A stretch of 64,000 nucleotides of DNA from Pyxidicoccus trucidator (GTDB lineage: Bacteria; Myxococcota; Myxococcia; Myxococcales; Myxococcaceae), in the NCBI RefSeq assembly GCF_010894435.1, contig NZ_JAAIXZ010000011.1, positions 310,001 through 374,000 on the forward strand. Reading direction: 5' to 3'. Positions 8,222 through 43,127 of the stretch are shown piece after piece. A model generated the notes under the pieces. That model was given only the letters and a program-made list of their open reading frames with translations. It did not search any database and was not told the DNA's origin. Position 1 is the stretch's first letter. Each line of letters begins with the position of its first letter. The position numbers and the translations under genes were made by a program.

Positions 8222-8354
8222 GTCTCCCACGCTCCCTTGGAACCCTAGAAACCGAAGCTAGGAGGGGGCCAGGCCCCTGGCCATGAGCCCTGGAGGCCGG
8301 GAGCGGTGAGCAACCGGGAACGGTGGAGGCAGCCGCGAGGGTGGAAGAAAGAAA

Positions 8355-8387
8355 GACGCCGGCGACCCTCGCGGGCACGCCGGCGTC
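8355..8387 (-). terminator. Rho-independent terminator of the downstream POT gene
   Basis: Perfect 10-base arms GACGCCGGCG (8355-8364) and CGCCGGCGTC (8378-8387) with a 13-base loop. Read on the minus strand, the stem is followed by TTTCTTTCTT, so it terminates the minus-strand transporter ending at 8440. Confidence 0.85.
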
Positions 8388-8439
8388 TTCGTCACAACGG
8401 CGTCCCGGAGTCAGCTCGGGACGCACCGGGGGGCGGGGC

Positions 8440-10002
8440 TCAGGCCGCCGCCACCGAGCCGCCCTGCGTGGCGGAGGCCGGCGCGGCGGGCTTCACCTCG
8501 TCCGTGCCGTGCATCAGCGCCTTCACCTTGCCGCTGAGGACCCAGAGCAGGCCGCCGCCCAGCACGCCCACCGCGACGAGCGAGAGGAAGATGCTGCCCT
8601 CACCCATCTGCTCGCTGTAGCCGCCCACCACGCCGGACAGCTTGTTGGCCGCGGCGTTGGCGAGGAACCACACGCCCATCATCGCGCTCACCATCCGCAT
8701 CGGGGCGACCTTGGTCACCATGGACAGGCCCACCGGCGACAGGCACAGCTCGCCCACGGTGTGGAAGAGGTAGGCCATGATGACCCACCAGGCGGCCGCC
8801 TTGCCCATGGTGGCGCTCTCACGCGAGGCGCCCACCATGAAGAGGAAGCCCACGCCCATGAAGATGAGGCCGAACGCCATCTTCACCGCCACGTTCGGGT
8901 CCTTGCCCCGCGCGGCCAGCCGGCTCCAGAGCGCGGCGAAGACGGGGGCGAGCAGCACGATGAACGCGGAGTTGAAGTTCTGGAACCAGGTGGTGGGGAC
9001 CTGCCAGCCGAACAGGCCGCGGTCCACCTTCTGGTCCGTGTAGAGGTTCATCAGGCCGCCGGCCTGCTCGAAGCCCATCCAGAAGAGGACGACGAAGATG
9101 GCGATGATGAAGATGGAGATGACGCGGTCCTTCTCCTGCTTCGTGAGCGCGCCCGCCTCCACCTGGGCCTGGGACTGCCCCTTCGCCAGCGCGTTGTTGC
9201 CCGCCCAGGCGACGCCCGCGAACACCAGGCCCGCGATGACGAAGCGCAGGAAGGACTGCTCGACGAGGGCCGGCACCTGCTTGAGGCCGTAGAAGACCAC
9301 CACCGCGCCGGCGGTGGCGACCGCGTACATGCCCACCCGCTTCCACGCCTCGAGGCGCTCGGCGGCCGTCTTCTCGGGGCTCAGGCCCACCTGGCCGAGC
9401 AGGCCGCGGCTCAGCCCGAGGAAGGTGATGAGACCCAGGAGCATGCCCACGCCGGCGGCGCCGAAGCCCCAGTGCCAGCCGACCTTCTCGCCCAGGGTGC
9501 CGCAGATGAAGTTGCCGAGCACCGCGCCCAGGTTGATGCCCATGTAGAAGATGGTGAAGGCGCCGTCGCGGCGGCCGTCACCGGGCGCGTACAGCCCGCC
9601 CACCATGGTGGAGATGTTGGGCTTGAAGAAGCCGTTGCCGCAGATGAGGAAGCCGAGCCCCGCGTAGAAGATGCTCTCCCCGGGTAGCGCCAGTAACAGG
9701 TGGCCAATCATCATCAGCGTGCCGCCGAACACCACCGCCTTGCGCTGGCCGATGATGTTGTCGGCGATGTAGCCGCCGGCAATGGGCGTCAGGTACACGA
9801 GGCCCGTGTACGTGCCGTAGAGCGCGAGCGCATCCGCGGTGGACCAGCCCCAGCCGCCAACCTTGTCGGTGAGGAAGAGCACCAGCAGGCCACGCATGCC
9901 GTAGTACGACATGCGCTCCCACATCTCGGTGAAGAACAGGAGGTAGAGCCCGCGCGGGTGGCCCTTGGGCGCCTCCGCGAGCCCTGCAGCGTTTGCGTGC
10001 AT
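8440..10002 (-). CDS. POT/PTR2-family oligopeptide transporter (second copy)
   Basis: Predicted 520-residue proton-coupled peptide symporter. It carries the POT motif EMWERMSYYGMRG near residues 20-32, a second family segment (GNGFFKPNISTMVG), and multiple hydrophobic helices including an extra pair in the middle (IFIIAIFVVLFWMGFEQAGG). The start at 10002 (MHANAAGLAEAP) has CAAGGAA eleven bases upstream; 30 extra in-frame codons upstream do not resemble the family. The C-terminal 30 residues are Ala/Gly-rich. A strong terminator follows. It is only moderately similar to the first POT protein, so the pair are probably old paralogues with different substrates rather than a recent duplication. 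Confidence 0.88.
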   Translation of the reverse strand: MHANAAGLAEAPKGHPRGLYLLFFTEMWERMSYYGMRGLLVLFLTDKVGGWGWSTADALALYGTYTGLVYLTPIAGGYIADNIIGQRKAVVFGGTLMMIGHLLLALPGESIFYAGLGFLICGNGFFKPNISTMVGGLYAPGDGRRDGAFTIFYMGINLGAVLGNFICGTLGEKVGWHWGFGAAGVGMLLGLITFLGLSRGLLGQVGLSPEKTAAERLEAWKRVGMYAVATAGAVVVFYGLKQVPALVEQSFLRFVIAGLVFAGVAWAGNNALAKGQSQAQVEAGALTKQEKDRVISIFIIAIFVVLFWMGFEQAGGLMNLYTDQKVDRGLFGWQVPTTWFQNFNSAFIVLLAPVFAALWSRLAARGKDPNVAVKMAFGLIFMGVGFLFMVGASRESATMGKAAAWWVIMAYLFHTVGELCLSPVGLSMVTKVAPMRMVSAMMGVWFLANAAANKLSGVVGGYSEQMGEGSIFLSLVAVGVLGGGLLWVLSGKVKALMHGTDEVKPAAPASATQGGSVAAA

Positions 10003-10184
10003 GCGCTGATTTCCTTGGGGGGACGGGTGTAACGGAAAAGGAGCGTGACTGTAGCAGACACGCCGGCCATGCCCAGGAGGACACCTGGGCACATCCAGAA
10101 TTCCCTACCCGGTGAATGGGCCGCCCCACCGCGGGTGCGGGCAGGCGGCCCGGGCCCGGCGCAGGCGAGCCGGCGGGCGCGAGG

Positions 10185-13070
10185 CTAGGCGGAGGACGCC
10201 CCGGACAGCGGGGCCAGCGGAGGACGCAGGGGCAGCCGCACCTCCACCTTCGTCCCCTCCCCTGGCGTGCTGCTGAGGGAGACCTGGCCGCCATGCCGCA
10301 TGATGATGCGGCGGCTGAGAGCCAGTCCCAGCCCGGTGCCCTCGCCCGCGGCACGGGTGGAGAAGAAGGGCTGGAACAGCCGCTCCATGTCCTCCTGGCG
10401 GATGCCCACGCCGTTGTCGCTGATGGTGACCACGGCGTCGTCGCCCTGACGCGACGTGGCAACCTCCACCCGACCCCGCTCGCCCACCGCGCGGAGGGCA
10501 TTGTCCAGCAGGTTGAGCCACACCTGGTTGAGGGTGCCCGGGTCGCCCATCACCGGCTCGTGGCACTGGTAGGCGCGCTCCACCGTGACGCCGGAGGGCA
10601 CGCGCCAGGCGAGCACGCTCAGCGTGGAGTCGAGCGAGGACGTCAACGAGAGAGCCAGCGGCGTGTCGCTCGTGCGGGTGAAGGACAGCAGGGACTCGGC
10701 CAGGTGGCGGATGCGCTGGCCGCACTCCTCCACCACGTCCAGCATCGTCCGGCTCATCTCCAGGTCCGAGGGCCCGCCCCCGAGCGCGCTCTTGAGCGGC
10801 CCCAGCGCGTTCATCAGCCCGTTGAGCGGGTTGCGCACCTCGTGCGCGAAGCCGGAGGTGAGCAGGCCGATGGCCGCCAGTCGCTCGTTCTCCGCGGCAC
10901 GCACCGCGGCCTCCCGCAGGCGCAATTGGGTTTCGATGCGGGCCAGCAGCTCGCGCGGGCTGAAGGGCTTGCCCAGGTAGTCGTTGGCGCCCGTGCCCAG
11001 GCCCTCCACCTTGGCCGACACCTCCTGCCTCGCGGTGAGGAGGATGACGGGGATGTCCACCGTGCGCGCGTCGTTGCGCAGCGCCGTCAGCATCTGCAGG
11101 CCGGACATGATGGGCATCATCACGTCGGACACGATGAGGTCCGGCCGCTCGGTCCGCGCGCGCTGCAGCCCCTCCTCGCCGTTGACGGACTCCAGCACCC
11201 GGTAGTGCTGCGCCAGCAGGCCGGCGATGAAGCCGCGAATCTCCGCGTCGTCCTCCACCACCAGCACGCGGGGCGACTCCAGCCCCGGCCCGACATGGTC
11301 CTTCGCGGGCGCGGACGTCGAGCCCGAGCCGGGCAGGCCGGCCGTGTCCAGCGTGGGGAAGGAGCCGGAGGTGCGCCGCTCCCGCCGCACCGGCGAGTCC
11401 GCCCGGCGACGCTCGCGCAGGTCCTCGCGGATGTGGGCCGTCCCCTTGGGCAGCCGCACGTGGAAGGTGGACCCCTTGCCCAGCTCGCTCGTCACGGAGA
11501 TGCCGCCGGAGTGCAGCTCCAGCGTCTCCTTCACCAGGGCCAGGCCGATGCCGGTGCCGCCGAAGCGCCGGGTGCCGCTGTTGTCCGCCTGGGCGAAGCG
11601 GTCGAAGATGACGGGGATGTCCTGCGGGGAGATGCCCGGGCCGGTGTCCTCCACCTCCACGTGCACGTCCGTGGCGTCCTCGCGCAGGCGGACCGTCACC
11701 CCGCCCTGCTGGGTGAACTTGAGCGCGTTGGACAGCAGGTTCTGGAAGACGATGTCGATGCGCTCGTGGTCCACCTGGACGGGCGTCACCGAGCCGCCCT
11801 CCAGCCGCAGCCACAGGCGCTGCCGGTCCGCCATGGCCTGGAAGGGCGGCAGCACCGAGCTCAGGAAGCCGTTCAGCTCCAGCGGCTGGTAGCGCAGCCG
11901 GGCCTTGCCCGACTCGAGCTGGGCCAGGTCCAGCAGGTTGTTGATGAGCCGCAAGAGCCGCTGGGCGCTGCGGTCCATGGTGACCAGGTGATGCCGCACC
12001 GCCGGAGGCAGCGAGTCCTCGTGCCGGCGCTCCAGCGACTCGAGCGTCAGCAGCATGAGCGTCAGCGGCGTGCGCAGCTCATGGCTGACGTTGTCGAAGA
12101 ACTCGCTCTTGAGCCTGTCCAGCTCCTGCTGCCGGGCGAGCGAAGCCTCCAGCTTGGAGTTGGCCTCGGACAGCGCCTGGGTGCGCTCCGCCACCCGGTC
12201 TTCCAGGGCCACGTTGGTGCGGAAGATCTCCTCGTTGCGCCGCTGCAGGTCCTCGAGGGAGGTGCGCAGGCCATGGTGCTGCTCGGACAGCTGCGCGTCC
12301 TTGCGGCGCAGCGCCGTGCGCGTGTCCAGCCAGGTGCCCAGCGCGATGCCCGCCACGCCCAGCGAGAACACCGCGAACACCGAGGACGCGAGGTCCAGCG
12401 TCCCGGACACCAGCCCCGCCAGCATGCCCATCATCCCGCCCGCGACGCTGCGCCAGGCCAGGGGCGGCAGGTTCTGCCAGTGGCACTCGTACTCGCAGCA
12501 GGGCGCACCCTGCACCTGGCACTGCACCTCCGTGACTTCGGCGAGGGGCAGGTTCCAGACGGTGGGAAAGGCCGACAGGTTGGCCTGGCGCGTCCGGCAG
12601 AGGTTGCGGTTCCGCTCGCGAATCTTGCTGATGTACTGCACCTTCACCCACGAGTCGGTGAGCTGCAGGATGTGGAAGCCACCCACGCGGTTGTAGGTGT
12701 GGTCCAGCTCCAGCCCGCGCTGGTAGACGCTGCGGGGCGTGGCCAGCGCCTTCATCATGTAGAAGAGGAAGCCCACGGCCTCCGGGCTGGCGATGCGGCG
12801 GCCCGCCTTGGTGATGAAGTCCGGGTCCCCCGAGTCCCGGTCGAGCGCCTCGAAGAGGCGCTCGGTGAAGTCCAGGGACACGAAGTTGGTCAGCGTCTCC
12901 ACGTACTCCAGCGACAGCGGCAGCCCCTCGGCCTGCCAGACCTGGAGCAGCCGCTCACGCCCGTACGTGCGCTCGTAGTGCAGCAGCAGGGCACGAAACG
13001 TCCTGACGCTGATCTCTGGCGTGTCGGGGGCTGGCGGTGCCGCCGCCACGTCTGCAGAGACAACCGTCAA
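10185..13070 (-). CDS. Hybrid sensor kinase: sensor-TM-kinase-receiver-kinase
   Basis: A 961-residue membrane histidine kinase. The N-terminal 200 residues form a sensor with a Cys cluster (C158, C184, C191, C192, C196) resembling V4R/4-vinyl-reductase small-molecule domains (tentative). Two hydrophobic helices lie at about 205-246 and a coiled coil at about 255-325. The first kinase has phospho-acceptor His330 (SHELRTPL) and an ATPase domain with N-box QNLLSNALKF. A receiver follows at about 601-715 (D607/D608, Asp649, Lys701). A second kinase has His743 (FAHEVRNPL) and its own ATPase domain (NLLDNALRAV, GTGLGLALS). The TTG start at 13070 overlaps the stop of the methyltransferase gene (TTGA), implying translational coupling. 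No DNA-binding output domain is encoded nearby. Confidence 0.88.
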   Translation of the reverse strand: MTVVSADVAAAPPAPDTPEISVRTFRALLLHYERTYGRERLLQVWQAEGLPLSLEYVETLTNFVSLDFTERLFEALDRDSGDPDFITKAGRRIASPEAVGFLFYMMKALATPRSVYQRGLELDHTYNRVGGFHILQLTDSWVKVQYISKIRERNRNLCRTRQANLSAFPTVWNLPLAEVTEVQCQVQGAPCCEYECHWQNLPPLAWRSVAGGMMGMLAGLVSGTLDLASSVFAVFSLGVAGIALGTWLDTRTALRRKDAQLSEQHHGLRTSLEDLQRRNEEIFRTNVALEDRVAERTQALSEANSKLEASLARQQELDRLKSEFFDNVSHELRTPLTLMLLTLESLERRHEDSLPPAVRHHLVTMDRSAQRLLRLINNLLDLAQLESGKARLRYQPLELNGFLSSVLPPFQAMADRQRLWLRLEGGSVTPVQVDHERIDIVFQNLLSNALKFTQQGGVTVRLREDATDVHVEVEDTGPGISPQDIPVIFDRFAQADNSGTRRFGGTGIGLALVKETLELHSGGISVTSELGKGSTFHVRLPKGTAHIREDLRERRRADSPVRRERRTSGSFPTLDTAGLPGSGSTSAPAKDHVGPGLESPRVLVVEDDAEIRGFIAGLLAQHYRVLESVNGEEGLQRARTERPDLIVSDVMMPIMSGLQMLTALRNDARTVDIPVILLTARQEVSAKVEGLGTGANDYLGKPFSPRELLARIETQLRLREAAVRAAENERLAAIGLLTSGFAHEVRNPLNGLMNALGPLKSALGGGPSDLEMSRTMLDVVEECGQRIRHLAESLLSFTRTSDTPLALSLTSSLDSTLSVLAWRVPSGVTVERAYQCHEPVMGDPGTLNQVWLNLLDNALRAVGERGRVEVATSRQGDDAVVTISDNGVGIRQEDMERLFQPFFSTRAAGEGTGLGLALSRRIIMRHGGQVSLSSTPGEGTKVEVRLPLRPPLAPLSGASSA

Positions 13071-32626: not shown

Positions 32627-34915
32627 CTAGCCCACGAAGGCGCTGAGGTCCTGCGTGTCCTTGTTGATGACGCCGGGCTTGATGTCGACCTCGAAGAGGA
32701 AGGGCTCCTTCAGCGGGCCGCCGTTGAGCTCCAGCTTGTGGCGGCCCTCCATCAGCTCCATCTTCAGGCCCTTGCTCCCCGAGTAGGTCCCCACGTCCTG
32801 GCCGTTGCGCCGCACGGTGATGCCGCGCAGCCCTTCGGGCTTCAGCGTCAGCTGGAGGTGGCCACTTCGGAACTCGTAGGGGATGACCTTGACCTGGCCG
32901 GGCTCTCCGTACGCGAGGCTCTCGCTGTCCTCCTTGTAGATGCCCCGCTGCTCGTTCTCCAGGATGAGCGTGTCCTGGAGGTGCGCGCCCGACACCATCG
33001 TCATCGGCGAGGAGCCCAGCTCCGTCACGGGCTGGGCGCTGCCGCACCGCTCGGTGTGGCGGACGGACACCTTCACCCGCTCATTGGTGTTGATGGTGAG
33101 CATCACACCCTGCCCATCCGCCGCCCGGCCGTTGAGCACCGCGAGGATGGGCTTGTGGAAGATGCCAATCACCGCGAGCAGGCCCACGATGAAGCCCACC
33201 GTGGCCACGTTGCGCGTGGCGATGGCCCGGCGCGCGCGCTGGGACGACGCTTCGATGGCGCGGTCCACCGCCTCGTCGTCGTCCCGGCGCATCGCCGGAG
33301 CGGAGACCGAGGAGCGGCGCGGCGGCGGCGGCGGGTCGGGCATCTCCGCGCGGCTGTCCACGCGGCTGGAGGTGCGCCGACGCGGCGGCTCCGAGGCAGG
33401 CTGCACCGAGGACTGCATGCCGGTGCGGCGGCGCGGCGGCGGGGCGGGCTCCGGAGGCGGCGGGAGCATGGTGCGCTCGTCGTCCTCCTCCTCGTCCACG
33501 GCCGGCAGGTTGGCGCGCGAGCGGGACGGTGGCGGCGGCGGCTCCGAGTCCGGCAGCGCCGGGGCGCGCGTGTTGGAGCGGCGCGGCAGGGGTACCTCAC
33601 CCGTGGGCGTGCGGCTCAGGTCCGAGCGGGAGTTGGTGCGCGCCACCTGCGTGGCATTGGGGTTGGACGGCCGGCGCACCGCGTCCGACGTGCGGCGCCG
33701 GGCGGGCATCTCGTCCGTGCCGGAGGGGGCATCCCACTCGTTCGGGTCCTCCTCCACCACGGGCGCGGCCACCGAGGCGGCGCGGCGCGGGGGCGCGGAG
33801 GGGCGCGCGGCCGAGGCGCGCGGGCGCTCGCCGCGGTTCGAGGGCTCGCCCGGGGGCGCCTCCCAGCTCATGTCCGCCGCGGCGGAGGACCGGCTGCGGC
33901 CCTTCTCCTGGGGCGGAGGCGGCGGCTGGGGCGTGCCGGAGTTGTTGGACTCCTCGCCCATCAGGACGACCTGGCCCTGGGCCTTCTCCTCGGCCAGCCG
34001 GTCCGCGAAGAGCGTCTCCATCAGCTCGGAGATCTGCACCGAGCCGGCCACCCAGCGCTGGCCGACGAGGATTTCCTCCAGCGCCACCTGGAACTGGCGC
34101 GCGTCGCGGTAGCGGTCGTCCGCGTTCTTGGCGATGGCCCGCATCACCACCGGGTCCATCTCCTCGGGTACGTCCGCCACCTGCGAGGGCGCGGCGATGG
34201 CGCACTCCATGGCGGCCTGCAGCGTCGCCAGCTCGGAGTCCCGCTTGAGGGGCCTCACGCCGGTGAGCAATTCGTAGAGCACCAGGCCGATGGCGAAGAT
34301 GTCCGCGCGCCCGTCCAGCGGCTTGCCGGAGGCCTGCTCCGGGGCCATGTACGCGAACTTGCCCTTGATGGCGCCCGACTTCGTCAGCGACGCCTGGTCG
34401 GCGGCCTTGGCGATGCCGAAGTCCACCAGCTTCACCGAGCCGTCGAAGCTGATGAGGATGTTCTGCGGGGAGATGTCGCGGTGCACCACGCGCAGCGGCC
34501 GGCCAGCGTCGTCCGTGCGGCTGTGGGCGTAGTGCAGGCCCTCGCAGGCGGCGGCGACGATGCGGATGGCCAGTGGCCGGGCCACCCACTGCCCGGAGCC
34601 CGCCGCCTTGCGCATGACCCGGCCCAGGTCCTCGCCATGGATGAACTCCATGGCGATGTAGTAGGTGCCGTTGGCCTCGCCGAACTCGTAGACCTGGGCG
34701 ATGTTCGGGTGGTTGAAGCGCGCGGCAATCAGCGCCTCGTTCCGGAACATCTCCACGAACTCACGGTCCTCCGCGAGGTGCGGAAGGATGCGCTTGACGA
34801 CGAGGTTCTTCTGGAACCCCTCGATGCCCATCTGGCGCGCAAGCCACACCTCGGCCATGCCGCCCGTGGCGAGCTTCTTCAGAAGCTGATATTTCCCGAA
34901 TGATTGAGGGTTCAT
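32627..34915 (-). CDS. Transmembrane Ser/Thr protein kinase (second)
   Basis: A 762-residue Pkn-class kinase. Catalytic residues are intact: Lys41, Glu60, HRD at 145-147 with Asn152, DFG at 165-167 and MAPEQ. Residues about 310-565 form a Pro/Arg/Ser-rich linker with repeated PPPPxR and RRxS patches. A single transmembrane helix lies at about 571-590. The roughly 170-residue C-terminal domain contains two PEGA-like beta segments (ITVRRNGQDVGTYSG, RHKLELNGGPLKEP). Architecture parallels the kinase at 23.6-26.0 kb, so they are paralogues. The start at 34915 is only 31 bases from the divergent neighbour's start. Confidence 0.92.
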   Translation of the reverse strand: MNPQSFGKYQLLKKLATGGMAEVWLARQMGIEGFQKNLVVKRILPHLAEDREFVEMFRNEALIAARFNHPNIAQVYEFGEANGTYYIAMEFIHGEDLGRVMRKAAGSGQWVARPLAIRIVAAACEGLHYAHSRTDDAGRPLRVVHRDISPQNILISFDGSVKLVDFGIAKAADQASLTKSGAIKGKFAYMAPEQASGKPLDGRADIFAIGLVLYELLTGVRPLKRDSELATLQAAMECAIAAPSQVADVPEEMDPVVMRAIAKNADDRYRDARQFQVALEEILVGQRWVAGSVQISELMETLFADRLAEEKAQGQVVLMGEESNNSGTPQPPPPPQEKGRSRSSAAADMSWEAPPGEPSNRGERPRASAARPSAPPRRAASVAAPVVEEDPNEWDAPSGTDEMPARRRTSDAVRRPSNPNATQVARTNSRSDLSRTPTGEVPLPRRSNTRAPALPDSEPPPPPSRSRANLPAVDEEEDDERTMLPPPPEPAPPPRRRTGMQSSVQPASEPPRRRTSSRVDSRAEMPDPPPPPRRSSVSAPAMRRDDDEAVDRAIEASSQRARRAIATRNVATVGFIVGLLAVIGIFHKPILAVLNGRAADGQGVMLTINTNERVKVSVRHTERCGSAQPVTELGSSPMTMVSGAHLQDTLILENEQRGIYKEDSESLAYGEPGQVKVIPYEFRSGHLQLTLKPEGLRGITVRRNGQDVGTYSGSKGLKMELMEGRHKLELNGGPLKEPFLFEVDIKPGVINKDTQDLSAFVG

Positions 34916-34946: not shown

Positions 34947-35861
34947 GTGGAATGCGTCAGGGCACGGCATCTTAGAGGACAGACCGCTCCGAGGCAAAGG
35001 AGGGGTACGAGGTTTTCCGGGTGGGCACTGGTTGCCTGCCTGCTGGTGGCCAGTAGCGCGACCGCCGCCCCCTCTATCGATCAGATCCGCGTGGAGCGCC
35101 GGGGCGACATGCTCGAGCTCCGCTGGTCGGACGCGGAGGAGCGCCTCCAGGGCACCATCCACCCCGCCTTCCCCCGGGAGGGCCAGCCCCTCACCGTGTC
35201 GCTCCATGTGGGGAACTTCCAGGGCGCCGAGTTCGACGGCCCCCTCACCCTGACCTTCCACCAGGTTGGCGCCCCCGCCCTGGTGACGCGGACCCTGACG
35301 CGGCAGGGGGTCAATTGGCACACCGAGCTCACCCCGGATGCCTCCGGCCTCTGGGAGCTGGAGGTGCGCTACCGCCACACGCATCTGAAGGTGCTGACCG
35401 CGCAGCTCTCCGTGGCGGATCAACCCCTGCCGCGCGGCCTGGGCTGGGGGCTGATCACCGTCGCGGCCGGCACGGCGCTGGTGCTCGGCATGCGCGGCGT
35501 GCTGCGCCGCATCCGGGCCCAGGCCTCGGAGTCGGGCCCGGCGGCTGGCACGGCCGGATCCGCGCCGCCTGTCACGAGCGCCACCGCGAGCTCCACGCCG
35601 GAAGCGTCCACCGCCACCCCTCCCCCGCCGCTCGCGTCGGAGACGCCTCCCTCCCCCGGCACCGCGCCGCTGGCTTCGGCCGGATCGCCCGCGTCCCCGC
35701 TGGCGCCCGAGACTCCGTCCGAGCCCGCCGCCGCGACGACGCCGGCAGCACCGTCCGAAGCGCCCGCCGCGACGACGCCGGCAGCACCGTCCGAAGCGCC
35801 CGCCGCGTCGGGCTCCGACGCGGCGTCCGAGCCTCCGGCGGATCCGTCCTCCACCCGGTAA
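34947..35861 (+). CDS. Exported single-pass membrane protein with Ala/Pro repeat tail
   Basis: A 304-residue protein of unknown function. The GTG at 34947 is the only good start and has AGGGAG eight bases upstream. A signal peptide (WALVACLLVASSATAAPS, about residues 26-43) precedes a beta-rich domain of about 120 residues. A transmembrane helix follows (about residues 160-180), then a 120-residue tail rich in Ala, Pro, Ser, Thr and Glu. The tail includes a perfect 36-base tandem repeat. It is divergent from the Ser/Thr kinase with only 31 bases between starts, so their promoters must overlap each other's coding ends. It may be a kinase substrate or partner (inference). Confidence 0.65.
   Translation: MECVRARHLRGQTAPRQRRGTRFSGWALVACLLVASSATAAPSIDQIRVERRGDMLELRWSDAEERLQGTIHPAFPREGQPLTVSLHVGNFQGAEFDGPLTLTFHQVGAPALVTRTLTRQGVNWHTELTPDASGLWELEVRYRHTHLKVLTAQLSVADQPLPRGLGWGLITVAAGTALVLGMRGVLRRIRAQASESGPAAGTAGSAPPVTSATASSTPEASTATPPPPLASETPPSPGTAPLASAGSPASPLAPETPSEPAAATTPAAPSEAPAATTPAAPSEAPAASGSDAASEPPADPSSTR
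35730..35801 (+). repeat. Two perfect 36-base tandem repeats in coding sequence
   Basis: Copies at 35730-35765 and 35766-35801 are identical. Each encodes 12 residues of the Ala/Thr/Pro/Ser/Glu tail of the membrane protein. Confidence 0.85.
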
Positions 35862-36060: not shown

Positions 36061-37380
36061 ATGGGCGGGTGGGGGTTCGATGAACGGGCGAGGCGGGGCC
36101 TTCTCGCCGCGGTCCTTCTGGGCATGCCGGCGCTCGCGAGCGCTGGAACTCCGGCCCCGGAGGTAGAGGCCTCCAGCACGGAGGCGGCGGAGGACACGCT
36201 CTCGGGTGGGGTGGTGGATGGCGTGGAGGGGCTCGAGGGCGATGTGCCGGCCAGCGCGGCCGCGGAGGGGCCCACGGGCGACGACTCGGACGAGGTGATG
36301 GAGGGGGCGCTGGCGGAAGCAATCCCAGCGAAGGGCGTGTCCGAGGAGCAGCTGTCGCCCGTGGGCCCGGTGCCGGGTAAGTCGGCGCCCGCGGCGGAGC
36401 AGCCGGGCAAGAAGAAGAAGAAGGTGAAGCCGGGTGAGGCCCAGGACGACTCGCTGGGTGAGAACCCCGACGCGGTGGACGACACGGCCGCGGAGGACCG
36501 GCAGGCCCTGCGCGTCGTCGGCCGGGTGTACGCGAGGGCTCGCGCGGACGAGCGCCAGAAGTACGCGCGCTCGCTGAGCATCCCCTCCGCCCGCGTGGGC
36601 GTGAGCACGTCGCTGTCCAACCTCGAGGCGGAGGTGACGGCGGACCTGGCGGATGACTCGGTTCTGAAGGACGCCTTCGTGCGGCTCGCGGACGACGCGA
36701 AGCGCTTCCGTATCTACGGCGGCCAGTTCAAGTCGCCCTTTCTCCAGCGCTCGCTGGAGTCCTCGTGGGATTTGCCCATGCAGGGCCGCGGGCTGGTGGA
36801 GGACTACCTCACCGAGGTGCACCAGCTCGGCGGCCGCAGGCTGGGGCTGATGGGCGAGGTGCGGCTGAAGGACGTCTGGGGCCTCAAGCTGTCCGCTGGC
36901 GTGTTCGAGGGCGGCAAGGACGAGGCGGGAGTCCGCATGAAGGAGGACGCCTCCGCGCGGCTGAGCCTGCGTCCTTTCAAGGCCCTCACCGTGGGCGTGA
37001 GCACCTACGTGGCGGAGGCGATGGACATGGCGCGCAAGCACGCGGTGGCCGGCGACGTGGGGCTTCGGCTGGGCGGGCTGGCGCTGACCGGCGAGGCCGT
37101 CACCGGCCGGCTGCCGCTGGGCCCCTTCACCGCGCAGCTGCTGCTGGCGCACTACACGCTGCCCGTGGGCAGTGAAGAGTGGGCAATCCAGCCGATGGCG
37201 GGCGTCGAGGCGCTCCAGCTTCGCGGGGACGTGGAGGGCAAGGGCCACGCGATGGTGGGCGGCCTCAATGTCCTGCTGGGAGACCGCTTCAAGGCGCAGT
37301 TCCAGGCGGAGCGCGCGCTGCGTCCCGGGGACGAGGCCGCCGCGCTCGAGTACTCGCTGCAGCTCGCCACCCGTTTCTGA
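36061..37380 (+). CDS. Phosphate-selective (OprO/OprP-like) porin
   Basis: A 439-residue outer-membrane protein. A signal peptide (LLAAVLLGMPALASAG) precedes an acidic, low-complexity region of about 130 residues with a KKKKVK patch. The beta-barrel then starts near RVYARARADERQKY and includes FRIYGGQFKSPFLQRSLESSWDLPMQGRGLVEDY, as in the Porin_O_P family, and ends in Phe (QLATRF). Known members pass phosphate, pyrophosphate or polyphosphate. A good GGAGG lies upstream of the ATG. It is followed after 17 bases by the VTC-domain gene and so leads a likely operon. The acidic N-terminal insert is not usual for the family. Confidence 0.8.
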   Translation: MGGWGFDERARRGLLAAVLLGMPALASAGTPAPEVEASSTEAAEDTLSGGVVDGVEGLEGDVPASAAAEGPTGDDSDEVMEGALAEAIPAKGVSEEQLSPVGPVPGKSAPAAEQPGKKKKKVKPGEAQDDSLGENPDAVDDTAAEDRQALRVVGRVYARARADERQKYARSLSIPSARVGVSTSLSNLEAEVTADLADDSVLKDAFVRLADDAKRFRIYGGQFKSPFLQRSLESSWDLPMQGRGLVEDYLTEVHQLGGRRLGLMGEVRLKDVWGLKLSAGVFEGGKDEAGVRMKEDASARLSLRPFKALTVGVSTYVAEAMDMARKHAVAGDVGLRLGGLALTGEAVTGRLPLGPFTAQLLLAHYTLPVGSEEWAIQPMAGVEALQLRGDVEGKGHAMVGGLNVLLGDRFKAQFQAERALRPGDEAAALEYSLQLATRF

Positions 37381-37397
37381 GCACGGAGAGGAAGACC

Positions 37398-38111
37398 ATG
37401 CTCTCGTTCGCCGAGGGGGAAGTCACCAAGCTCCGGCGTGAGTTCAAGCTGGTGCTGGAAGAGGAAGCGACGCAGGCCCTGTGCGGGCTGCTGTCGCAGG
37501 AGCTGGGGGGGCACCTGCCTCCGCCCACGCGCATCGTCTCTGTCTATTTCGACCGGCCGGGCTGTCCGCTGGCGTCGCGCGCGCTGCGCACGCCGGATGA
37601 CTGCCTGAAGGTCCGGACCAAGGAGTACTCGCCGGACCTGGGTGCCGGCGGCGTGCAGCGGGTGGTGGTGGAGGTGAAGCGCGAGCGGCGGGGCCTGACG
37701 CAGAAGCGGCGGGTGTGGGTGCCGCGCGCGGACCTGGGCCGGGTGCTGCGCGGCGGCGCGGGCCTGCTGCCGCTCATCGCCGGGGGCAGCCTCATCCCGG
37801 TGCTGGCCGTCACCTACAAGCGGCACGTGTACCAGGCCACGCAGTCGTGGCGGGTGACGGTGGACCGGGACATCGCCTACCACGCGATTACGCCGGAGCT
37901 GGCGATGTCGCAGCTGGCGCTGACGGCGGAGCGGCTGGGGCCGCCCCAGTGGATGGACCACCGCGTCGTGGTGGAAGTGAAGCATCTCGGGCACGTGCTG
38001 CCCGAGTGGCTGGCGTCGCTCAATCCGGGCGGAGCGCCGGCATACAGCAAGTTCGCGGAAGGGATGGCGAGGGTGCACGCCTTCGTCACGGATGGGGTCG
38101 CAGGGGGATAG
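37398..38111 (+). CDS. VTC-domain (polyphosphate polymerase-like) protein
   Basis: A 237-residue cytosolic protein of the VTC domain family, whose yeast member Vtc4 makes polyphosphate from ATP inside a basic beta-tunnel. Diagnostic blocks are LRREFKLVL at the start, SVYFDRPG, CLKVRTKEYSP, VVVEVKRERRGLTQKRRVWV, VTYKRHVYQ, WRVTVDRDIAYH, and the metal-site block VVVEVKHLGHVLPEWL. Basic tunnel residues and acidic metal ligands look conserved by eye. No membrane helix is present. The ATG at 37398 has AGAGGAAG upstream. The thymidylate-kinase-like gene begins 6 bases after the stop. Confidence 0.82.
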   Translation: MLSFAEGEVTKLRREFKLVLEEEATQALCGLLSQELGGHLPPPTRIVSVYFDRPGCPLASRALRTPDDCLKVRTKEYSPDLGAGGVQRVVVEVKRERRGLTQKRRVWVPRADLGRVLRGGAGLLPLIAGGSLIPVLAVTYKRHVYQATQSWRVTVDRDIAYHAITPELAMSQLALTAERLGPPQWMDHRVVVEVKHLGHVLPEWLASLNPGGAPAYSKFAEGMARVHAFVTDGVAGG

Positions 38112-38117
38112 GGCACC

Positions 38118-39824
38118 GTGTTCATCGACTTCGAGGGGATTGACGGCAGTGGCAAGACAACGCTCTCCAACCTGCTGGCCGCGCGGCTCAAGCGGCTCGG
38201 CTACCGGGTGGCGCATGCGCGAGAGGGGGGCGAGCTGCAGGCGCCCGCGGCGCGGCGCGTCCGGGAGCTGACGCGTGACTCACGGCTGCTGGAGATGTCT
38301 CCACGCACCGAGTTCTTCCTCAACCTGGCGCGTGACGCGCAGCAGTTGGACGAAGTGGTGGCTCCCGCGCTGCGGCGGGGCGAGGTGTGCATCACCGACC
38401 GCTACCTGTACTCGCAGCTGGCGCTGAGCGGCGGCGGGCGCGGGCTGCCCATGTCGGAGCTGCTGCCGGCGTGCGAGCTGGCCTCGCAGGGGCTGTGGCC
38501 GGACCTGGTGGTCCTGGTGGACGTGGACCCGGACCTGGCGCGCTGGCGCAAGCGCCTGGGCAAGCTGCAGAGCGCCCGGGTCAGCGACGGCGACAGCCGC
38601 AAGGGGCTGGCCGGAGCGGGGCTGGCGGTGCGGGTGCGGGAGTCCTTCCTGGAGATGGCGCGCAAGGATCCGCAGCGCTGGCTCATCCTGGAGAACAACG
38701 ACGTGCCGCTGCGCGTGCTGGAGCAGCGGCTGGTGGACGCGGTGGTGGCGCGGCTGGAGGGGCGTGAGGTGCCGGTGCAGCGCATCGTCCCCGCGCCGGC
38801 CGCCCTGCCCTCCGGAGCGACGACGGTGGAGAACGCGGAGGAGCGCTTCTTCCAGGCGCTCGACTCGGTGGAGGTGCGCGAGCCCGCGCTGGCGGCGTGG
38901 ATGGTGGGCGGCCTGCCCGGGCCTTCCGCGCACCAGCGGCGCCTGGCGTACATGGAGCGCTTCCCGGCCCTCACCGCGCGCGGCCTGGGCGGGCTGGACG
39001 ACGACGCGGCGTGGACGCTGCGCGACGTGCTGGCGCCGGTGGCGCCCGCGGAGGTGGCCACCAGCCTGGGCGGCCTGACGGGCCCGCGGGCGATGATGCT
39101 GCGCGAGCGCCTGTACGCGCAGGCCCCGGTGGAGGTGCTGGCGGGCCTCAAGGGTGACAGCTCGCCCCAGGCGTGGGCGCTGCGCGAGCGCGGCATGCGG
39201 GATGGCCGGCTGGCGGACGTGCTGTCCGGGCTGGCCGGCGTGGACGGTGACGAGTCCTGGGTTGTGCGCGAGGCGGGCATGCAGCGCAAGCTGTACGCGG
39301 ACGTGGCGCGCAGCCTGGGCGGGCTCACCACGGGGCGCGCGGACGCGCTGCGCGAGGTGCTGCTCGCGCATGACCGGCTGGCGGTGCTGCGCAGCACCAC
39401 CGGGGTGTCCACTCCGGTGGCCCGAGGCCTGCGCGAGGCGCTGGCGGGCAAGGCGCTGAAGCTGGTGCTGCGCTCGCTCACCGGCCTCACCACCGAGGAG
39501 GCCTGGGCGCTGCGCGAGAAGGGCGCGCCGCTGACGAAGGAGGCGCTGGACTCGGTGGACGGGCTGGATGACTCGCGTGCATGGCAGCTGCGCGTGGCGC
39601 ACCTGGGCCGCTGGCCGTCCACCGTGGTGTCGTCGCTGAAGGGACTGCCGCTGGGGCCACACGCCCGGACGCTCATCGACCGCGTGCTCGAGGAGAACCC
39701 GGGCCGGCTGCCGGTGCTGCGCAACGCGTACGCCGTCATCGCCACGGCGCGGTACGCCGTCACGCACACCCGCGCGCCCCGCCCGGAGGCGGAGGTCTCC
39801 CCGCAGCTGGCGCTCCAGGGATAG
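38118..39824 (+). CDS. Thymidylate-kinase-like protein fused to a 27-residue repeat array
   Basis: A 568-residue fusion. Residues 1-215 are a dTMP-kinase-fold P-loop domain: FEGIDGSGKTT (5-15), REGG, ITDRYLYSQLAL with the DRY motif (94-96), and an Arg-rich lid near RWRKRLGKLQSARV. Residues about 288-536 consist of about nine imperfect 27-29 residue repeats, approximating S-L-x-G-L-x(4)-A-W-x-L-R-E-x(8)-V-L-x-S, likely an alpha-solenoid. Normal Tmk is about 210 residues, so the C-terminal half is extra. The GTG start at 38118 is close behind the VTC gene, and DUF4956 follows after 6 bases. The P-loop domain could use dTMP, or act on polyphosphate like the related-fold PPK2 (inference). Confidence 0.8.
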   Translation: MFIDFEGIDGSGKTTLSNLLAARLKRLGYRVAHAREGGELQAPAARRVRELTRDSRLLEMSPRTEFFLNLARDAQQLDEVVAPALRRGEVCITDRYLYSQLALSGGGRGLPMSELLPACELASQGLWPDLVVLVDVDPDLARWRKRLGKLQSARVSDGDSRKGLAGAGLAVRVRESFLEMARKDPQRWLILENNDVPLRVLEQRLVDAVVARLEGREVPVQRIVPAPAALPSGATTVENAEERFFQALDSVEVREPALAAWMVGGLPGPSAHQRRLAYMERFPALTARGLGGLDDDAAWTLRDVLAPVAPAEVATSLGGLTGPRAMMLRERLYAQAPVEVLAGLKGDSSPQAWALRERGMRDGRLADVLSGLAGVDGDESWVVREAGMQRKLYADVARSLGGLTTGRADALREVLLAHDRLAVLRSTTGVSTPVARGLREALAGKALKLVLRSLTGLTTEEAWALREKGAPLTKEALDSVDGLDDSRAWQLRVAHLGRWPSTVVSSLKGLPLGPHARTLIDRVLEENPGRLPVLRNAYAVIATARYAVTHTRAPRPEAEVSPQLALQG

Positions 39825-39830
39825 GCATAC

Positions 39831-40532
39831 ATGGACCCCTTCTCGACGATTCTCCAAAGCGCGAAGTCGGAGCTGGGCTCGGTGCCCGTCGCCGCCATGC
39901 TTCCCCGGATGCTGGCGGCGGCCCTCATCGGCGCGGTGCTGTCGCTGCGGCCCTGGCGGCTGCTGATGAAGCGCTCGCTGCCGAAGGCCGAGATGATTCA
40001 GACGCAGGTGCTGCTGTGCGCCGCGGCGGCGGTCATCACCGCCGTCATCGGCGACAGCGTGGCCAAGGCCTTCGGCCTCGTGGGCCTGGGCGGCTTCGTG
40101 CGCTTCCGCTCCGGGCTGAAGGACCCGCGCGACGCGGCCATCCTCTTCCTCATGATTGGCCTGGGCATGGCGTGTGGCCACGGGGCACTGGGATTGGCGG
40201 GCATGGGCACGCTCTTCGTGGCCGCGCTGCTGTGGGTGCTGGACCTGTTCAACCGCGAGGAGAAGAGCGCGCCCAAGCAGCGGATGCTGGTGTCCGCGCA
40301 GGCGGATGACCTGGTGGGCGCCGAGGCCACGCTGCGGCAGGCGCTGCGGGAGCGGAACGTGCTGGTGAAGAGCTGCGCGCTCGACTTCGACGGTCGGCGC
40401 GTGGAGCTGGAAGTGGAGGAGCCGGAGCCAGGCTCCCTGGCGGCGGCGCTGGGCCGGACGGAGGGGGCACCCCTGCGGGGGCTGCGGTGGACAGCGGTGA
40501 GCCCCAAAGGGGCACGGGAGGACATGGTATGA
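39831..40532 (+). CDS. DUF4956-like membrane protein
   Basis: A 233-residue protein with about four transmembrane helices (about residues 22-40, 54-74, 76-120, 122-140). It carries the block FGLVGLGGFVRFRSGLKDPRDA, which matches the DUF4956/MgtC-like loop. A soluble C-terminal domain of about 90 residues resembles a small ferredoxin-like regulatory fold. DUF4956 genes often sit beside VTC-domain genes in bacteria, which supports the reading of this locus. The stop overlaps the next gene's start as ATGA. Confidence 0.75.
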   Translation: MDPFSTILQSAKSELGSVPVAAMLPRMLAAALIGAVLSLRPWRLLMKRSLPKAEMIQTQVLLCAAAAVITAVIGDSVAKAFGLVGLGGFVRFRSGLKDPRDAAILFLMIGLGMACGHGALGLAGMGTLFVAALLWVLDLFNREEKSAPKQRMLVSAQADDLVGAEATLRQALRERNVLVKSCALDFDGRRVELEVEEPEPGSLAAALGRTEGAPLRGLRWTAVSPKGAREDMV

Positions 40533-41335
40533 CGCGCAGTTGGGTGGCCGCGCTCGCGGCGGGTTGGGTGCTGGTGGCGTGTGGTGGGGGTGGCAGTCTG
40601 CCGCCGGGGGATGGACAGCAGTCGCCCATCGGCAATCCGGACGGGAGCATCGACCTGCCGGGCGACGCCGTGGACCCGGACGACCAGAACCCCGACGACC
40701 AGGACACCGGGGATGAGACCTCGCTGTGGCCGATGACGACGGGCTCCAGGTGGGTCTACGACATCAAGGACCCCGTCCATGGCGAGTTCCAGAAGACGGT
40801 GACGGTGCTGGGTCCCCGCGAGGTGCCGGAGACGCAGGGGAAGATGACGGCGGTGCTGATGCACAGCCGGCAGGACCGCTCCCTGAGCGGCGTGGTCTAC
40901 GAGGAGTATTCGTGGCAGCTCGAGCTGACCAACGGCCTGGTGGTGCGGCTGCGCGAGGAGGACCACAAGGACGGTGACCGGGTGCGCACCACGACCTGGT
41001 CCCCCGCCACCGTGAAGTCCATGGCCCGCGTGCCGGAGACGCTGCCCTGGAGCTACCAGAGCGCGGTGCTGGAGCAGACGGTGCTGGGTGACGGGACGAA
41101 GGAGGACTCGGACCCCACCTACAACTGGCGCGTGGTGGAGAAGGGCCTGACGCTCCAGACGAAGGCGGGCACCTTCACCGACGTCATCAAGGTCCAGCGC
41201 GACAAGCTCAACGACGCGGGCGAGGTGAAGCAGGACAAGGTCCGCATCTACTGGCTCGCGCCCGGCGTGGGGAAGATTCGCGAGGAGGGCGAGCGGATTG
41301 AAGAGCTGTCCTCGTATGACGTGAAGAAGAAGTAG
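40529..41335 (+). CDS. Lipoprotein of the phosphate/polyphosphate locus
   Basis: A 268-residue predicted lipoprotein with lipobox VLVAC (Cys18), followed by a Gly-rich and then acidic DPDDQNPDDQD linker. The remaining 200 residues form a beta-rich domain without a name I recognise; it begins LWPMTTGSRWVYDIKD, a pattern common in secreted bacterial lipoproteins. The start overlaps the DUF4956 stop (ATGA), so it is translationally coupled to that membrane protein. Function unknown; an envelope partner of the locus is likely. Confidence 0.72.
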   Translation: MTRSWVAALAAGWVLVACGGGGSLPPGDGQQSPIGNPDGSIDLPGDAVDPDDQNPDDQDTGDETSLWPMTTGSRWVYDIKDPVHGEFQKTVTVLGPREVPETQGKMTAVLMHSRQDRSLSGVVYEEYSWQLELTNGLVVRLREEDHKDGDRVRTTTWSPATVKSMARVPETLPWSYQSAVLEQTVLGDGTKEDSDPTYNWRVVEKGLTLQTKAGTFTDVIKVQRDKLNDAGEVKQDKVRIYWLAPGVGKIREEGERIEELSSYDVKKK

Positions 41336-41465
41336 CGCCTGTCCGGGGAGGCGGCGGAGGCGGGAGCGCCCGCTCCGTCGCCTGCCCTGACGTGTCGATG
41401 GCTGGATGAAGGTTGGAGAATAGACGGTTGGGCCTCGGTCCCGAGCTCGTTCGGGAGGAGGCTTC

Positions 41466-43127
41466 ATGCACCGGACTTCAACCTTCACTCTCGCGCCGCT
41501 CGTGGCGGTGCTGACGCTCGTGACGGGCGTCGCCTGCGCGGGCGTGCTGCCCCGAGACCCCTACCTCCAGAAGGTAGGACCGGACACGGCCACCGTGGCC
41601 TTCCGGCTCGCGGCCGACTGCGCGCCTACCGTCCTGTTTGGCGAGGGAGCGACCGACCAGTCCACGCCCTCCACGGCCAAGGGGCGCGTGCACGCGGTGG
41701 TCCTGACGGGCCTCAAGCCCGCCACCGAGTACACCTATGTGGTGGACGCCTGTGGCAAGGCGACGCCGGCCAGGCGCTTCCGCACCGCGCCCACGCCCGG
41801 CACGCGCAGCGTGCACTTCACCGCCGTGGGCGACTTCGGCACGGGCGGCTCGGACCAGAAGCAGGTGGCCGCGGCCATGCTCAAGGCCCGCCCCGAGCTG
41901 TTCGTGGCGCTGGGCGACAACGCCTACTCGTCCGGCACCGAGTCGGAAATCCAGAACAACCTCTTCGCTCCCATGGCGGAGCTGCTGTCCGAGGTGCCCC
42001 TCTTCGCGTCGCTCGGCAACCACGAGTACGTGACGAACCAGGGGCAGCCGTACCTGGACAACCTCTACCTGCCGTCCAACAACCCGGCGAACAGCGAGCG
42101 CTACTACTCGTTCGACTGGGGCCACGTGCACTTCGTGGCGCTGGACTCCAACTGCGCCATCGGCCTGGCCTCGTCGGACCGCTGCGCGCTGGCCGCGCAG
42201 AAGGCGTGGCTGGAGAAGGACCTGGCCGGCACCACGCAGCCGTGGAAGGTGGTCTTCTTCCACCACCCGCCCTGGTCCAGCGGCGAGCACGGCTCGCAGC
42301 TCGCCATGCGCCGCAACTTCGCGCCCCTCTTCGAGAAGTACGGCGTGGACCTGGTGCTCACCGGGCATGACCACAACTACGAGCGCAGCAAGCCGATGCA
42401 GGGCGACGCCGTGGCGGGCGCGGGCAAGACGGGCATCCCCTACCTCGTGGTGGGCGGCGGCGGCGCGTCCCTGCGTCCCTTCGCCACCTCGAAGCCGGCG
42501 TGGAGCGTCATCCGCGACGACCAGGCGCATGGCTTCCTGGACGTGAAGGTCGTCGACGGCACGCTCACCGCGGAGCTGGTGGAGACGGACGGCAAGGTGC
42601 TGGACACCTTCACCCTGCGCAAGGAGCTGCCCCCGCTGGAGCCGCCACCCACGGGCACGCTGACGGTGACGGTGGAGGGCGAGCGGGGCGTGGCCCCGCA
42701 CAAGGCGCTCTTCCTCGCCACCCCGGGCGTGGCGGGCTCGAAGGTGACCTGGGACTTCGGTGATGGCGGCTCGGCCGAGGGCACGTCGGTGGAGCACACC
42801 TACGCGAAGGCCGGCAGCTACACGGTGACGGCCACGGCCACGCACGGCACGCAGCTCCAGTCGGCCACCGCCGTGGTGCAGGTGACGGGCTCGGGGAACA
42901 CGGATGAGGAGACGCCGGTGGACCCGGAGGACCCCTCGACTCCGGGGGACCCGTCGACTCCGGCGGACCCCGACACGCGGCCCGGGCTGCCTGGGAACCC
43001 CTCGGGAGACGACTCGGAAGCGACGGGTGGCCAGTCCGGGGGCGGCTGCACCGCGAGCCCCACCGCCGCCCTCTTCCCGGCCCTGGGCCTGCTGGTGGCC
43101 GGGCTGATGCGGCGGCGCCGCAAGTAG
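41466..43127 (+). CDS. Secreted metallophosphoesterase with PKD domain and MYXO-CTERM tail
   Basis: A 553-residue exported protein. A signal peptide (LTLVTGVACAG) is followed by a purple-acid-phosphatase-type N-terminal beta domain. The calcineurin-like phosphoesterase core has all metal motifs: VGDFGTGG, GDNAYSSG, GNHEY, FHHPPWS and GHDHNYER (about residues 118-310). A PKD domain (VTWDFGDGGSAEGTSVEHTY) and an acidic Pro/Asp linker precede the C-terminus. There, GGGC, a hydrophobic helix and RRRRK form a MYXO-CTERM sorting signal, predicting surface anchoring. It closes the porin-VTC-kinase-DUF4956 locus after a 130-base gap that may hold a separate promoter. Confidence 0.88.
   Translation: MHRTSTFTLAPLVAVLTLVTGVACAGVLPRDPYLQKVGPDTATVAFRLAADCAPTVLFGEGATDQSTPSTAKGRVHAVVLTGLKPATEYTYVVDACGKATPARRFRTAPTPGTRSVHFTAVGDFGTGGSDQKQVAAAMLKARPELFVALGDNAYSSGTESEIQNNLFAPMAELLSEVPLFASLGNHEYVTNQGQPYLDNLYLPSNNPANSERYYSFDWGHVHFVALDSNCAIGLASSDRCALAAQKAWLEKDLAGTTQPWKVVFFHHPPWSSGEHGSQLAMRRNFAPLFEKYGVDLVLTGHDHNYERSKPMQGDAVAGAGKTGIPYLVVGGGGASLRPFATSKPAWSVIRDDQAHGFLDVKVVDGTLTAELVETDGKVLDTFTLRKELPPLEPPPTGTLTVTVEGERGVAPHKALFLATPGVAGSKVTWDFGDGGSAEGTSVEHTYAKAGSYTVTATATHGTQLQSATAVVQVTGSGNTDEETPVDPEDPSTPGDPSTPADPDTRPGLPGNPSGDDSEATGGQSGGGCTASPTAALFPALGLLVAGLMRRRRK

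Follow-up and report, generated by a model that had tools for sequence, protein, structure and literature searches.

What does a tight row of genes do that sets a VTC polyphosphate-polymerase domain directly beside a kinase with a long repeat tail, and is it a unit at all? The question is raised by positions 36061–43127 of a 64000-nucleotide stretch of the Pyxidicoccus trucidator genome (assembly GCF_010894435.1, contig NZ_JAAIXZ010000011.1, positions 310001–374000), the whole of which is called the window below. A preliminary description made from the sequence alone had reported six same-strand genes there, with four junctions of 17 bases or less or overlapping, and the open reading frames (ORFs) called from the window agree: all six lie on the + strand, and four of the five junctions, which measure in gene order 17 nt, 6 nt, 6 nt, a 4-nt overlap and 130 nt, are of this kind. 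The VTC, Thymidylate_kin and DUF4956 families that it had named were all recovered by Pfam searches. Our analysis indicates that the first five genes probably form a bacterial VTC-polymerase module with a dedicated solenoid-kinase partner, situated at the cell envelope. The six genes are:

36061..37380, + strand: porin-like outer-membrane protein, a probable Porin_O_P relative (439 amino acids; from the ORF)
37398..38111, + strand: VTC-domain protein with the TTM fold, a probable polyphosphate polymerase (237 amino acids; PF09359)
38118..39824, + strand: P-loop kinase of the thymidylate-kinase fold (residues 1–232) with an alpha-solenoid of 27-residue repeats (residues ~240–550) (568 amino acids; PF02223)
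39831..40532, + strand: DUF4956 membrane protein with a C-terminal ACT/MgtC-like domain (233 amino acids; PF16316)
40529..41335, + strand: DUF3108-like lipoprotein, overlapping the DUF4956 stop by 4 nt (lipobox in the sequence)
41466..43127, + strand: MYXO-CTERM metallophosphoesterase with a PKD domain, a looser partner (PF00149, TIGR03382)

The lipoprotein start at 40529 was chosen inside a longer ORF (40487–41335). A promoter and terminator scan gave no excess over shuffled sequences.

Conservation of the gene set

The association of VTC with the solenoid kinase, referred to here as the repeat kinase, reaches well beyond the window genome. The kinase alignment, scanned against 84,980 named species genomes, gave at least 80 loci, and the counts that follow are among those listed: 53 repeat-kinase loci, comprising 22 of Myxococcaceae cluster 1 (the arrangement of the window), one related metagenome-assembled genome (MAG), six of a second cluster (cluster 2), 16 that we group as distant Myxococcota-type (titles Myxococcales, Polyangiaceae, Kofleriaceae, Sorangium, Myxococcota, Delta- or Proteobacteria) and eight that are Planctomycetota-type or uncultured. 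In 48 of the 53 named loci the same strand carried a VTC gene no more than 6 kb away (22/22, 1/1, 5/6, 12/16 and 8/8, in the order just given), as counted with a profile that itself contained some of the distant VTCs. With a profile built from cluster 1 only (A2), 47/53 loci were recovered at E≤2e-5, including the MAG locus L137, where VTC lies 8 kb away on the other strand, and Pfam confirmed VTC in L127, L129, L137, L142, L147, L149 and L151. An iterated VTC profile was swollen by long stop-free frames and its E-values were left unused. As a control, module genes were found in none of the 27 canonical Tmk loci of the same scan, which came from other bacterial groups and offered stretches of 4.7 to 18.6 kb.

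Several arrangements were seen, namely porin-VTC-kinase-DUF4956-lipoprotein, CotH-VTC-porin-kinase-DUF4956, PPDK-porin-kinase-lipoprotein-VTC-NaPi, VTC-NaPi-kinase and VTC-kinase; the order of the genes differs from one lineage to another, but the set itself is kept. Its repeat-fused kinase represents a family of its own, found mainly in Myxococcota and Planctomycetota. One listed locus (L154) breaks off at the contig end within the kinase domain, so that the tail was not seen, and in two MAGs (L155 and L164) the repeat-kinase ORF is split over two frames, by sequencing error or decay. When the kinase was searched against plasmids by tblastn, none of the 38 records covered 80% of the query, and the matches, among the 20 of 38 listed, were to the Tmk part only.

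Closer to the window, the cluster-1 family comprises 51 loci, of which L189 and L190 represent a single cluster divided between two contigs. VTC and the kinase are both present in 50 of the 51, on the same strand in all 50 and with 8–21 nt separating the profile envelopes; the exception is L190, which the contig end truncates. The porin-VTC, VTC-kinase and kinase-DUF4956 pairs were each found, same-strand and tight, in 50 of the 51 loci, and the DUF4956-lipoprotein pair likewise in 48. At the genus level synteny extends to all eleven of the region's genes that were searched, as might be expected if the cluster were mere local synteny, in which unrelated genes happen to lie around an ordinary second dTMP kinase. 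However, in a sister family (L078, L079, L186 and L187) the porin-VTC-kinase-DUF4956 genes stay together, and the four flanking window genes sought in L078–L080 were not found. The association thus persists across families, phyla and gene orders without its flanking genes, and it is absent from the canonical Tmk loci, both of which argue against such an explanation. The genes are therefore not scattered in relatives, and the earlier suggestion that they form a system is borne out to the extent that the unit is real.

The Myxococcaceae also possess a second, paralogous cluster with the order CotH-VTC-porin-kinase-DUF4956; in L090 and L127 these genes are followed further along by PPDK_N and a lipoprotein. 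CotH and VTC lie within 6 kb in five of the six named cluster-2 loci; L135 has neither, and in G109, apparently the same strain, the two stand together on another contig (L089). One cluster-1 locus, L110 (BNCN01000003.1)/L185 (genome G108), is titled ‘Comamonas sp. KCTC 72670’; the title looks mislabelled, the organism being apparently a myxobacterium.

Across the order, VTC was found in 75 of 145 genomes and the repeat kinase also in 75 (best E below 1e-100, by our own reading of the table), although these counts are not independent events, as most of the genomes are close relatives. Seventy of the 75 repeat-kinase genomes were also in the VTC list, and once the kinase loci of G108, G013 and G014 had been fetched VTC was seen there too, bringing the total to 73/75; the remaining two are G060, in which the contig starts inside the kinase, and G139, described below. 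Conversely, five genomes (G050, G051, G053, G131 and G133) have VTC and no repeat kinase. In four loci from kinase-less genomes (L085, L086, L087 and L191) we observed a gene for PPDK_N, an ATP-grasp dikinase domain, which stands beside VTC in three of them; it was confirmed by Pfam in L085 and L086, and L085–L087 also carry DUF4956. The domain is met again beside the repeat kinase in 4/16 distant Myxococcota-type loci, besides the cluster-2 loci L090 and L127.

Two genes border the cluster in the window, a Ser/Thr protein kinase (32627–34915, - strand) and a divergent signal-peptide protein with an Ala/Pro-rich tail (34947–35861, + strand). Both are probably unrelated to it, as they are syntenic in the genus but do not accompany the cluster in L078–L080.

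The repeat kinase

The kinase domain is readily recognized. Pfam places PF02223 (Thymidylate_kin) on residues 5–193 with an E-value of 4.4e-24, and the NCBIfam dTMP kinase model TIGR00041 scores 96.1 bits, over its cut-off of 83.25. An AlphaFold2 model built with 37 sequences (pLDDT 92.1, pTM 0.90) was matched over residues 1–213 to the Tmk of T. thermophilus (VIA Z 24.8, rmsd 1.5, 178 residues).

Within this fold we compared residues between 37 repeat kinases and 27 canonical Tmks, all of the latter from the control loci and the window genome's own canonical tmk being left out. Asp-9, the P-loop residues Gly-12 and Lys-13, and Asp94-Arg95 are kept in 37/37 repeat kinases. The acceptor side is quite different: position 73 is Arg in 27/27 canonical Tmks and Asp or Glu in 37/37 repeat kinases, position 37 is Pro in 27/27 as against 0/37, position 103 is Tyr (26) or Phe (1) as against Leu, His or Gln in 37/37, and position 104 is Gln in 27/27 as against Ser, Ala, Gly, Thr or Cys in 37/37. 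At position 69 the canonical enzymes have Phe (21) or Tyr (6), whereas the repeat kinases have Tyr (23) or Asn (14), with Asn in the window protein. In the Mycobacterium tuberculosis enzyme, whose thymine-site residues include Phe70, Arg74 and the Pro37 region, Phe70 stacks on thymine, and Arg74 and Asn100 hydrogen-bond to it (PMC3619541); position 73 is equated with this Arg74 by motif spacing, the M. tuberculosis Tmk lying outside our alignment. On these alignments the ATP site of the repeat kinase is kept and its thymine-reading residues are lost. Although TIGR00041 is passed, and automatic annotation would for that reason probably say dTMP kinase, the loss of the thymine-contact positions in 37/37 sequences, taken together with the persistence of the association, makes an ordinary second dTMP kinase among chance neighbours extremely improbable.

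Two other identities were considered and rejected. The protein is not the housekeeping Tmk, since a canonical tmk is separately encoded in the window genome (143.5 bits), and it is not a PPK2, no PPK2 being among its Pfam families at E≤1. The repeat kinase itself is present as a single copy in the window genome, as are VTC and DUF4956, both of which are located in the cluster.

Behind the kinase domain, residues ~240–550 consist of two-helix repeats with a period of 26–28 residues. Each repeat carries one Arg, which is invariant in 37/37 sequences at eight positions and present in 31/37 at the ninth, so that this ladder position is Arg in 98% of cells (nine positions × 37 sequences). The repeat positions richest in acidic residues are about half conserved, Glu directly follows the ladder Arg in 48% of cells, and most of 13 sequences give the solenoid a net charge ranging from about zero to slightly positive. 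The tail had no Pfam match at E≤10 and a single match among PDB sequences, with an E-value of 0.44; the fold-search matches listed all fall on residues 1–217, ahead of the solenoid. HEAT repeats use arginine ladders for structure, and the ladder seen here may likewise be structural (of the R/W or R/E type) rather than anion-binding. A different precedent is ygiF, a fusion of a TTM enzyme with a helical CHAD domain that binds polyphosphate (PMC6537752); by analogy, the solenoid could be a polyanion-binding ladder placed beside a polyphosphate polymerase. With an intact ATP site and an acceptor site unfit for dTMP, the kinase would then either phosphorylate some other small molecule or hold the chain on its arginine ladder.

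Probable polymerase, envelope proteins and the fate of phosphate

PF09359 matches the VTC protein with an E-value of 4.8e-14 (52.9 bits, over a cut-off of 23). A profile of 18 VTC members spanning the sampled lineages (A7) aligned with yeast VTC4 (3g3q) over the whole TTM domain, with an E-value of 5.9e-24. In this alignment R361, E426 and K458 of VTC4, numbered from the printed alignment, correspond to R142, E193 and K218 of the window protein, all invariant in 18/18 homologues. R361 we take to be a catalytic residue of VTC4. E426 is named in PMC9911596 and K458 in PMC4641920, and Vtc4 is inactivated by the R264A/R266A/E426N set (PMC9911596); R264 and R266 correspond by motif to R73, which is invariant, and to K75, which is not. 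The VTC protein retains all alignable yeast VTC4 catalytic residues, which suggests that its product would be polyphosphate.

The TTM enzymes, however, also include hydrolases and cyclases (PMC4641920), and it could be argued that the VTC protein is a tripolyphosphatase-like or signalling enzyme and that the kinase makes a small messenger, with no bulk polymer formed at all. The small-molecule kinase fold would suit such a regulatory or nucleotide module, as would the ACT-like tail of DUF4956, which suggests ligand sensing. TTM hydrolases have four glutamates at positions that are basic in VTC4 (PMC4641920), and the first strand of the window protein reads R-x-E-x-K, so that one hydrolase-type Glu (E15) may remain. 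Against this, the alignment of the family with VTC4 runs the full length of the domain and includes a retained equivalent of K458, a residue that matters in the polymerase and little in the plant hydrolase (PMC4641920). We consider a purely regulatory role distinctly unlikely.

The probable membrane partner of the polymerase is the DUF4956 protein (PF16316, E 6.7e-11, 42.6 bits against a cut-off of 30.6), which also matches MgtC in Pfam below the cut-off (5.7e-5). Its model (pLDDT 75.4) has five long helices followed by a beta-alpha-beta-beta-alpha-beta, ACT-like tail. A fold search with it gave no match at E≤0.001; the C-terminal domain of MgtC (7qa5) was among the weak Foldseek matches, with an E-value of 5e-3, and a DUF4956 profile found nothing of note in the PDB. 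For SIR_1592 of Streptococcus intermedius a similar make-up has been described, with four helices, an ACT tail and an MgtC domain (PMC12345266).

With regard to the outer envelope, the phosphate-selective porin assignment of the preliminary description was recovered for some relatives and not for the window protein itself, which failed to match Porin_O_P (PF07396). Of 16 aligned porins, the window porin included, six match PF07396 at E≤0.001 and nine at E≤1 (best E 2.4e-9); a distant porin (L145) matches at 4.4e-9, the L134 porin does not match, and a porin profile gave no meaningful match in the PDB. A Porin_O_P scan of the window genome hit two other places, not the cluster porin. A porin lies near the kinase in clusters 1 and 2, in 11/16 distant Myxococcota-type loci and in 0/8 Planctomycetota-type loci. 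The lipoprotein falls below the DUF3108_like cut-off, which a homologue in L128 exceeds (30.7 bits against 27).

The sixth product was correctly described as a MYXO-CTERM metallophosphoesterase, with Metallophos (PF00149) at 9.8e-18 plus PKD, and TIGR03382 at 21.7 bits over a cut-off of 15.85 (TIGR03901 stays below its cut-off, 18.1 against 20). As a member of the set it fares less well. The gene follows the lipoprotein in 40 of the 51 cluster-1 loci, within 200 nt in 32 and at 509–3951 nt in eight, and occurs in two more (L074 and L083) where no lipoprotein was detected; it is absent from eight loci over the 3.4–6.0 kb searched. Thus it adjoins the cluster in most family loci, but in 16/51 it is either missing or separated by over 500 nt, besides one locus cut by the contig end. 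In the sister family a divergently oriented homologue lies upstream of the porin, with CotH beyond (in L080 the match is a weak fragment only). We therefore regard the phosphoesterase as a looser, optional partner.

Such an arrangement could, as the preliminary description proposed, serve phosphate uptake and storage, in which the porin admits phosphate or pyrophosphate, inner-membrane transport imports it and VTC traps it as polyphosphate. The OprO/P-type matches among the porin homologues fit this, as does the phosphoesterase beside most family clusters, and an Na/Pi cotransporter gene (Na_Pi_cotrans) adjoins VTC in 9/16 distant Myxococcota-type loci (Pfam-confirmed in L149, L144, L152, L153 and L128). 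MgtC, to which the DUF4956 tail is related in appearance, is a reported activator of phosphate transport via PhoR (PMC6658541). However, the window cluster contains no inner-membrane phosphate transporter gene, the genome already has PPK1, and the CotH, lamin-tail-domain (L139) and Pel genes that neighbour other copies of the module are not uptake genes. Uptake is accordingly a possible but not a favoured function.

The CotH and Pel neighbours raise the opposite direction, in which DUF4956 and the porin would let out polyphosphate that forms a coat on the cell or binds matrix; the parallel is the accessory trio of Gram-positive Pel loci. In those pel loci a VTC-DUF4956-CotH set has been described (PMC7112168; PMC12345266), and in S. 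intermedius deletions of SIR_1592 (DUF4956-like) and SIR_1594 (CotH) altered Pel levels and aggregation (PMC12345266). The authors of the latter paper report that they did not find the trio outside the Pel locus; we found it complete in five named cluster-2 loci and in L151, and the DNA fetched for these contained no relative of PelF, PelG or DUF4832. The preliminary description had proposed that the repeat kinase takes the place of CotH, and this is not borne out, since both occur in the same loci: five of the six named cluster-2 loci, L126, L146 and L151, as well as near the L078-type clusters. No CotH was found within 6 kb in the 22 named cluster-1 loci, and the window genome has six CotH genes elsewhere, none on the window contig. 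In L151, a planctomycete MAG, four tandem CotH-type genes (6496–11882), the first of them Pfam-confirmed, directly follow VTC-kinase-DUF4956. L137, a Myxococcales MAG, has a pel locus (PelF, PelG and DUF4832/DUF4874) together with VTC, DUF4956 (below the Pfam cut-off and found by the family profile) and the repeat kinase, and so bridges the Gram-positive pel accessory set and the repeat-kinase module. Yet tblastn with PelF, PelG and DUF4832 over the window and 160 fetched loci detected such genes in L137 itself only, and other loci carry the Na/Pi cotransporter. Porin_O_P porins are, moreover, known as uptake pores. Export or surface display thus seems rather unlikely.

Taken together, we favour a VTC module at the envelope with the repeat kinase as its partner. 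The VTC domain would make polyphosphate from ATP in the cytosol, and at the inner membrane it would have the MgtC-like DUF4956 protein as its anchor, regulator or passage; the solenoid kinase would act on or with the polymerase; and the OprO/OprP-type porin and the DUF3108-like lipoprotein might carry phosphate or polyphosphate across the outer envelope, the surface phosphoesterase being an optional addition. A bolder version, an envelope-spanning synthesis and translocation machine in which VTC polymerises, DUF4956 passes the chain, the solenoid (as a new polyphosphate-binding fold) grips or measures it and delivery to the surface falls to the porin and lipoprotein, strikes us as very doubtful.

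A number of observations count against the favoured module. Five of the 53 loci lack a VTC gene within 6 kb, namely the short contigs L132 and L143, the not short L134 and L135, and L137, and in G139 (L188) no VTC was found within 18 kb of the repeat kinase. The Planctomycetota-type loci have no porin and a single DUF4956 among eight, so that the shared core there is VTC plus kinase. The SIR_1593 (VTC) mutant of S. intermedius still aggregated and made Pel (PMC12345266), and the literature searched, as far as it was available, named no bacterial VTC with measured polymerase activity. To these may be added the PPK1 of the window genome, by which VTC is probably dispensable for bulk polyphosphate, the low model confidence in the membrane part of DUF4956, and, from the preceding results, the failure of the window porin to match Porin_O_P and the possible hydrolase-type E15.

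Relation to known systems

Among the closest described systems is the pel trio, with which the module shares a VTC gene adjoining a DUF4956 gene with an ACT-like tail, and CotH in the sister clusters; unlike it, the window has no pel genes and no adjacent CotH, and adds the repeat kinase, porin and lipoprotein. From the yeast VTC complex (Vtc1/3/4) the module retains the catalytic TTM domain with the equivalents of R361, E426 and K458, and possibly a link to a membrane partner that bears conserved basic residues, whereas the window VTC has no SPX domain or fused membrane helices, the membrane part being a separate DUF4956 protein, and the kinase-solenoid, porin and lipoprotein are additions. 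The window kinase resembles bacterial Tmk in fold, Walker A and DR motif, and differs in its replaced thymine-reading residues, its solenoid of 27-residue repeats and its place beside VTC. With the TTM-CHAD protein ygiF of E. coli there is an analogy, in that a TTM enzyme is paired with a helical module bearing conserved basic residues, although here the helical architecture differs, the genes are separate and polyphosphate binding by the solenoid is putative. PPK2 enzymes, finally, are P-loop kinases for which a common origin with thymidylate kinases is presumed (PMC8776046), but the window kinase matches Tmk profiles and not PPK2.

Of the preliminary interpretation, then, the real unit and the phosphate or polyphosphate theme survive, the latter through the VTC catalytic residues, the Porin_O_P matches of porin homologues and the neighbouring Na/Pi cotransporter; the exchange of kinase for CotH does not, and the phosphoesterase is weakened as a core member. 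No description of the VTC-repeat-kinase pairing was found in the literature searched, which left most subscription papers outside its coverage, and the solenoid-kinase partner of the VTC-DUF4956 module, together with the outer-membrane parts, is apparently undescribed.

Two consequences follow. The window repeat kinase and its relatives score as dTMP kinases without the substrate-reading residues, and a likely misannotation is thereby flagged. Bacterial polyphosphate research centres on PPK1 and PPK2, and VTC-type synthesis has been studied in eukaryotes; a conserved Gram-negative VTC module would make VTC-dependent polyphosphate synthesis in bacteria, and the destination of the polymer, directly testable in a genetically tractable organism.

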